Origin: an uncultured Thermomicrobium sp.
Lineage (GTDB): Bacteria > Chloroflexota > Chloroflexia > Thermomicrobiales > Thermomicrobiaceae
Reading direction: 5' to 3'
Length of the DNA: 64,000 nt
NCBI GenBank assembly: GCA_938028665.1
Contig: CALIMB010000022.1
Location: 1-64,000 of the forward strand
Each line of letters begins with the position of its first letter. Within the stretch, counting starts at the first letter, position 1. The notes under the pieces are model-generated. The model worked only from the letters and a program-made list of their open reading frames with translations, was not told the DNA's origin and did not search any database. Positions 51,973 to 53,289 of this stretch are shown here, piece after piece. Position numbers and translations under genes: made by a program.

Positions 51973-52074
51973 GTTGTTGAGGTTCAGTCCCATTTGAGAT
52001 GGGGAAGCGTGCTTGAACCGCCGCACTGACTTATTGTCGTTACCGAGGTTGAGCCCCATGTGAGATGGGGAGAC
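51973..52074 (+). CRISPR. Degenerate two-repeat CRISPR-like array
   Basis: Two 36-bp units (51973-52008 and 52039-52074) match at 28 of 36 bases and are separated by a 30-bp unique spacer. Each has a central hairpin: CCCAT/ATGGG in the first and CCCCAT/ATGGGG in the second, where the base change keeps pairing. The shared ends, GTT at the left and GGGGA at the right with a final C, fit CRISPR repeats of class 1 systems. No cas gene is in the window, and only two units remain, so this is best seen as an array remnant or a solo element. Confidence 0.55.
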
Positions 52075-52080
52075 ATGGGC

Positions 52081-52122
52081 AAAAAAACGCGCGGAGCACT
52101 GGGGGACAGAGCGCTCCGCGCG
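52081..52122 (-). terminator. Intrinsic terminator of the small RNA
   Basis: Ten-base arms at 52122-52113 and 52097-52088 (on the plus strand CGCGCGGAGC and its complement), a 15-nt loop, and a run of seven T on the minus strand (52087-52081). Confidence 0.8.
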
Positions 52123-52126
52123 CCAA

Positions 52127-52146
52127 GGGAAGGGAAGGGATTGGGG
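52127..52146 (+). other. G-quadruplex-type tract
   Basis: Four runs of three or four G with 2-3 base gaps occur on the plus strand, the template of the small RNA. It could form a G-quadruplex; the complementary C/U tract is the linker of the small RNA. Confidence 0.4.
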
Positions 52147-52188
52147 TGCGGGTCGGACAGCGGGGATGCTCCCCGCCCGCCAGCGCAA

Positions 52189-52218
52189 AGTATACCACTT
52201 GTGTTCTGTCGAGTGCAA
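52189..52218 (-). promoter_or_regulatory. Promoter of the small RNA
   Basis: On the minus strand, TTGCAC (52218-52213) and TATACT (52194-52189) are 18 bp apart. TATACT recurs as a -10 box elsewhere in this window. Transcription should begin near 52182. Confidence 0.65.
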
Positions 52219-53289
52219 ACTGACCTGACTGAGGTGACGTCGTTGCGGGCATGTTGTACCACGTGACGGCATACGTTTGCCGCGTTTCACGAGGTTCCCC
52301 AGAAGATGCTGTTTCTGCGGGCAGTGGTACAGCGAAAGGATCAACGGCAGCTGGACATCTCTTCGGGGAAGCCATGGCTCTCGCAGTGTTCAGACCTTGG
52401 ATGATTTCCGAAGAACAGAAAGAAAAAGCGGCAAGTACGCGGTGACCGCCATCAGCCGCTATCCCCTGTGATCCGGTGACCGGTACCGCTAGAGAGGCGC
52501 ACGGCGATGACGTGCGTCGCTTTCCGGTTTCTGGACATGAGTTGTAAGCACTCATGCTTGTGCGTCAGGGCGGGTGGCACGTCTGAGAGCGCGCTTGAAT
52601 ATTGCGTCTCCCTCGGAATGCTCTTTGGCCTGGGGGTCAGGAAACGGCTGTACTGCGACTATGCGATGTCGGCGCCTCTCCTCAACTCTGAGGAGAGTGC
52701 ACCAGGTTGCCATGGTCTGTGGTTTCCAGTGAGGGTCGGATGTAGCTGGCTCGATGAACTCGTGACTGTCGCTCGGGGGCCGTTCCCCCATGAGGGGACA
52801 TGGTCGATGTGACCAATGCAGCGGTATATCCTGCCGGTTCACAGTCCAGGAAACCTGTTCGAGCTTGTGCTCTCGAAGTGACGAGCAGGAATATCTCCTG
52901 ATTGCCGGACATTTCACTGCGTGCACTGCACATGCCTCCGAGAGGTGGAGGACAGTCTTGACAAGCGCACTGAAGTGAAGGGGTTTCTCTTGTGCTGTGC
53001 AGCAGAGCGGCAGACCACTCGTGTGGCTGTGGCTCGGCGGTAGAGATCCGACTGATGTCCGTGGGCGGTGTGCGCTGATGTCGGCACTTTGCACGCTCCG
53101 GGTTCTCAGCGTTGGCCACGGTACCAAGTCTGGGTATACGGCCTCTGCGGTGGAAAGCTTTGTTGCATACCCGTGTCTCTGTGACTTGTTCATCTGAGAA
53201 TCTTCTCACTCTCACATCCTGTACCAGCTTGACCGATCTTCATCAGTAGACCGGTACGGCTGAGGTAAGGGCCAAGGAGGGATAAGGAG

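Follow-up and report, generated by a model that had tools for sequence, protein, structure and literature searches.

The minus strand of the window, a stretch of 64,000 nucleotides from an uncultured Thermomicrobium sp., carries at positions 52218-52081 a free-standing small RNA gene. As the earlier note on this DNA had proposed, a promoter, two hairpins, a linker and a run of seven T are all present; the gene is also conserved in relatives. We consider it likely that this is a stand-alone trans-acting regulatory RNA, the CCCUU-repeat linker of which would pair with a small set of mRNAs and block ribosome binding. Judged from the sites complementary to the linker, the RNA probably switches off translation of cell-wall enzyme genes and of a conserved cyclase gene. 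In the papers that we searched, no trans-acting small RNA has been described for Thermomicrobia, and this RNA, which is uncatalogued in Rfam, comes with a defined putative seed, a covarying structure and a list of candidate targets.

The small RNA gene and its conservation

The promoter consists of a -35 hexamer, TTGCAC (52213..52218), and a -10 hexamer, TATACT (52189..52194), both on the minus strand and separated by an 18-nt spacer. Both had been pointed out before and are found at this distance, but the -35 hexamer is weak; among the promoter regions of the 18 homologues, several relatives have TTGACA in its place, and the -10 position reads TATACT, TAGACT or TATCCT and in a few cases TATCAT or TAAAAT. 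The predicted RNA of about 100 nt (52081..52182, minus strand), its start placed from the -10 box and its extent from the fold, agrees with the covariance-model match at 52081-52183. On the same strand it comprises a 33-nt 5' hairpin (52148..52180), which covaries and has the apical loop AUCCCC (ACCCCC, CCCCCA or CGCCCU in most relatives); an unpaired 22-nt linker, CCCAAUCCCUUCCCUUCCCUUG (DNA CCCAATCCCTTCCCTTCCCTTG; 52124..52145), made of three CCCUU units between the two hairpins and proposed from its conservation and accessibility as the target-binding seed; and a terminator hairpin (52088..52123), formed by the inverted repeat 52122-52110/52100-52088 and followed by seven T (52081..52087). 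The terminator is present as claimed before, although the G/C stem, given before as 10 bp, measures 13-15 bp and is capped by a 9-nt C-rich loop of the CUGUCCCCC type containing GUCCCCC. The RNA body folds at -51.2 kcal/mol compared with -38.3 +/- 3.4 for dinucleotide shuffles (z -3.8; 0 of 200 shuffles as good), and in the predicted fold the linker is single-stranded, with a mean paired probability of 0.06. A simple consensus scan of the window returned neither the promoter nor the terminator, because of the weak -35 hexamer and the 9-nt loop. The promoter is recognisable in all homologues; some genera have only a weak run of T at the terminator.

Of 41 near genomes searched by blastn, 18 contain the RNA, and each of these belongs to the window's own family; E values go down to 3e-59 outside the window's genome. 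Within the family (Thermomicrobiaceae/Sphaerobacteraceae) one strong copy is present in 18 of 21 genomes, including all 14 with a completeness of at least 90%; the three genomes with no match are 62-87% complete. The covariance-model search of relatives suggested by the earlier note, run with a model built from 11 homologue sequences, returned one strong copy in each of the same 18 among 158 class genomes and no strong match beyond the family among these and 400 phylum genomes, and the weak matches outside the family have E values of about 4e-4 or worse. A search of 84,980 genomes for exact copies of the 21-mer CCAATCCCTTCCCTTCCCTTG returned 14 stretches, in records of Thermomicrobium, Thermalbibacter, Sphaerobacter, other Thermomicrobiaceae/Sphaerobacteraceae and the bins HR26 and HR28.

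The hairpins and the linker, on the conservation of which in near relatives the earlier note had staked its claim, are retained in all 18 genomes. None of the 22 linker positions varies among the 18 homologues, and the terminator stem is almost as constant; in the 5' hairpin 9 of the 12 pairs vary on both sides, the terminator hairpin has 100% of its cells paired, and across both helices 11 pairs are changed on both sides. In the model-fitted alignment of 18 sequences, which is biased towards the model, 93% of cells pair, falling to 30-49% when the structure is slid, and 48 cells are changed on both sides, a number reached by 0 of 500 shuffles (15.4 +/- 3.8). An alignment made from sequence only (n=11) gives the same sign, with 19 such cells against 6.7 +/- 2.5 (0 of 500).

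The genes around the small RNA vary among genera and even among Thermomicrobium species, and therefore the RNA appears to be free-standing rather than a neighbour's leader and to act in trans; a cis target in a neighbouring gene was rejected, the gene context not being conserved. The gene has a promoter and an intrinsic terminator of its own, independent of the neighbours, which are a general mark of trans-acting small RNAs, and the combination of an invariant linker, a covarying hairpin and a changing neighbourhood is the signature expected of such an RNA. Several open frames of 92-171 aa do overlap the region, which would fit a chance terminator-like sequence or a piece of an unannotated protein gene; the RNA is conserved in 18 genomes, its helices covary, its neighbours change and its non-coding core is invariant, all of which argues against both, and we regard the chance of either as negligible.

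Several further observations concern the gene and its surroundings. Between the -35 and -10 boxes TTATGTCAA is conserved in relatives outside the window's genus (window 52195-52220; relatives L007-L018). In Sphaerobacter (g2) and g6 this sequence forms, together with the -35 box that it overlaps, an inverted repeat, TTGACA-N6-TGTCAA, which is degenerate in g3, g4 and g5 and is probably the operator of some regulator. Just past the RNA terminator the window holds two copies of a 27-nt repeat, GAGGTTSAGYCCCATKTGAGATGGGGA (51979-52005 and 52045-52071), which are 89% alike and 66 nt apart, and no further copies occur in the rest of the genome at up to 3 mismatches; the pair looks like a degenerate two-repeat CRISPR remnant. 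In genus g5 there are sibling RNAs, L038 (G010:C5:60168-60248) and L040 (G014:C376:2477-2583), with the linkers CCCAATCCCTTCCCTCC or CCAATTCCCTTCCCTTCC and C-loop terminators of their own, and the family therefore has paralogues. Second 12-mer sites in relatives are mostly unrelated, the exception being a real paralogue in one genus; one such site follows what appears by eye to be a tRNA-Sec gene.

Comparison with known C-rich RNAs

Rfam gave no match in the window at the gathering thresholds, and only chance matches in the region or in five relatives at permissive ones. The best sub-threshold scores belong to mmgR/suhB (RF00519), which also has a C/U-rich stretch before its terminator hairpin, and to tfoR (RF02100); at 19.2 bits against a cut-off of 41 and 20.5 bits against a cut-off of 70, respectively, both were rejected as chance level.

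Closer in kind are the staphylococcal RNAIII and Rsa RNAs, in which accessible C-rich boxes likewise pair with ribosome-binding sites and of which RNAIII represses peptidoglycan-turnover hydrolases and amidases (PMC3861533). Their UCCC motifs are located in hairpin regions and loops, whereas here CCCUU is repeated three times in an unstructured linker. The window, the region and the five relatives contain no Rfam sequence or structure match to Rsa or LhrC-type UCCC RNAs; the feature that such RNAs share, an accessible C-rich motif complementary to the ribosome sites of conserved targets, is nevertheless predicted for this RNA. The 6C/B11 RNA of actinomycetes also has two unstructured C-rich loops, which in B11 pair at ribosome sites and lead to repression (PMC10470900). 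Searches with the 6C model (RF01066) were negative in the window at the gathering threshold, in the region up to E 10 and in the five relatives up to E 3. In contrast to the runs of about six C in the 6C loops, the loops in the window read AUCCCC and GUCCCCC, one homologue (L016) has a 5' loop with no C run, and the invariant part here is the linker. The alpha-r14/cuckoo RNAs of rhizobia resemble this RNA in having an ultraconserved anti-Shine-Dalgarno motif together with fast-changing stems (PMC10746234), but they belong to a different lineage and each of their three hairpins carries CCUCCUCCC; the window RNA, with two hairpins and a CCCUU-repeat linker, lacks both CCUCCUCCC and a third hairpin. 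By sequence and predicted structure, then, this is a new family of a known kind, one that would work like the C-rich anti-ribosome-site RNAs and that falls within the definition of none of them.

Candidate targets and mode of action

In the mechanism that we propose, the invariant unpaired linker would recognise a small set of mRNAs by pairing with sequences of the GGGAAGGGA type, located at the start codon or a short way upstream of it, and would thereby block ribosome binding. The leading candidates are the LysM/M23 cell-wall hydrolases and the PF04199 cyclase, joined in some genera by a Tat-type secreted protein and a D,D-carboxypeptidase; the hairpins would stabilise the ends of the RNA and present further C-rich loops.

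We searched for the linker complement AAGGGAAGGGA in the window's genome and three congeners and then inspected the start codons downstream. One perfect match of 16 nt in the window's genome, GCCAAGGGAAGGGAAG, pairs with 52137-52122 and lies upstream of the start of a gene with a LysM domain by domain calls and an M23-like end read by eye. This gene has the motif in G003 and G006 as well, and the search repeated in other genera returned LysM proteins in G007 and G013 and a cyclase in G009. For comparison, a background of 862 genes was taken from sampled stretches of G000, G007 and G013; genes were called as simple ORFs, and every candidate start was tried for background and targets. Near the start, the linker complement GGGAAGGG occurs in 17 of 27 LysM/M23 loci, the other 10 being devoid of it, against 11 of 862 sampled genes, or 1.3% of leaders (Fisher 5e-22), and 6 of 231 length-matched genes (4e-15); with Thermomicrobium, the genus in which the motif was discovered, set aside, 12 of 22 loci have it (9e-11 against the length-matched set), although all of these p-values overstate independence, since the sequences are related. 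By genus the motif accompanies LysM/M23 in four of five other genera and is lacking in g4. Energies of the duplex between LysM/M23 leaders and the linker are below background (Mann-Whitney 7e-12), and the gap between targets and background is -9.3 for the real linker, compared with a mean of -4.2 (sd 1.0) and a strongest value of -7.2 for 60 shuffled linkers.

Leaders of the PF04199 cyclase fall in the best 1% of the background in all five Thermomicrobium genomes tested and in G009 and G016 (one further genus and one g3 genome), and the cyclase proteins are 90-100% identical while their leaders have drifted. The motif also stands in the leader of a twin-arginine-like secreted protein, which we suspect to be an amidase, in G009 and G013, and a D,D-carboxypeptidase has strong leader sites in G006 and G003 and a moderate one in G000; the sites of these last two proteins are confined to some genera. 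The same genes carry the complementary motif in their leaders in different genera, and this, together with the conservation of the RNA, supports the suggestion of the earlier note that the C-rich sequence pairs with ribosome sites. The methyltransferase gene that it had named as a candidate target (minus strand, start 63002) fares poorly, as its -15.5 kcal/mol is equalled or beaten by 47% of background genes and the -21.3 of its orthologue in one relative by 11%.

Genome-wide, the exact linker complement is not enriched over its reversed spelling, although, owing to the periodicity of the linker, that spelling too is nearly complementary to it; the signal is visible only per gene family, and the complementarity is partly ribosome-driven, because the G-rich leaders are also ribosome sites. 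This lack of enrichment would suit an RNA that acts on proteins, its C-rich linker and loops titrating Rho, a KH-domain or a cold-shock protein, with the leader matches being nothing other than purine-rich ribosome sites. C/U-rich single strands are indeed good ligands of Rho and KH proteins. Such proteins accept variation, yet the 22 nt do not differ among 18 genomes in which the hairpins have drifted; moreover, two gene families carry the complement in different genera at rates far above background, and the gap is not obtained when the linker is shuffled at constant composition, so that we hold titration to be rather unlikely. Many sampled leaders pair with the linker to some degree (median about -15 kcal/mol), as would be expected if it were a general anti-Shine-Dalgarno decoy damping very many mRNAs with no defined set, but GGGAAGGG is specific, being found in so few of the sampled leaders, and is kept in particular genes across genera, which makes a general decoy very unlikely.

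A different question is the sign of the effect. The site in the LysM/M23 leaders of Thermomicrobium stops about 15 nt short of the ATG and need not cover the ribosome site itself, so the RNA could pair with the leaders to stabilise or activate the mRNAs. We find this unlikely, since in other genera the complementary site abuts the start codon directly and the known precedents among C-rich RNAs mostly act as repressors (PMC3861533, PMC10470900). Returning to translational repression by the linker, we infer that the RNA is expressed, that it pairs in the cell and that its effect is repressive, the last because of the position of the site and the precedent of RNAIII, Rsa and B11 (PMC3861533, PMC10470900). 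If so, C-rich anti-ribosome-site RNAs would act on cell-wall hydrolases in unrelated phyla, through RNAIII in Staphylococcus and through the present RNA in Chloroflexota, which would be convergence. T. roseum has little peptidoglycan, which nevertheless appears to be essential (PMC2615216), and the control of peptidoglycan-cutting enzymes is of interest for this reason. More tentatively, we speculate that the RNA might coordinate cell-wall remodelling post-transcriptionally throughout the family, whose wall is atypical and poor in peptidoglycan, and that it might do so chaperone-free at about 70 C, perhaps controlled by a regulator of its own that binds TTGACA-N6-TGTCAA.

Secreted proteins with a shared C-terminal domain

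About 10-30 secreted proteins per genome, family-wide, share a C-terminal domain with the pattern YFPETGH...FGYP...YFERARFEYHP (G000:C40:17571-19067; L305-L364). One candidate target carries this domain; the proteins as a whole were considered as targets and rejected, the shift of the group being slight (median -16.4 versus -15.1). In three genomes of genus g3 (L059, L064, L070) the RNA has, about 1-3 kb upstream, a gene for a secreted protein of this group, and in G013 the gene of this kind beside the RNA has the best-pairing leader among the sampled genes, at -32.4 kcal/mol.
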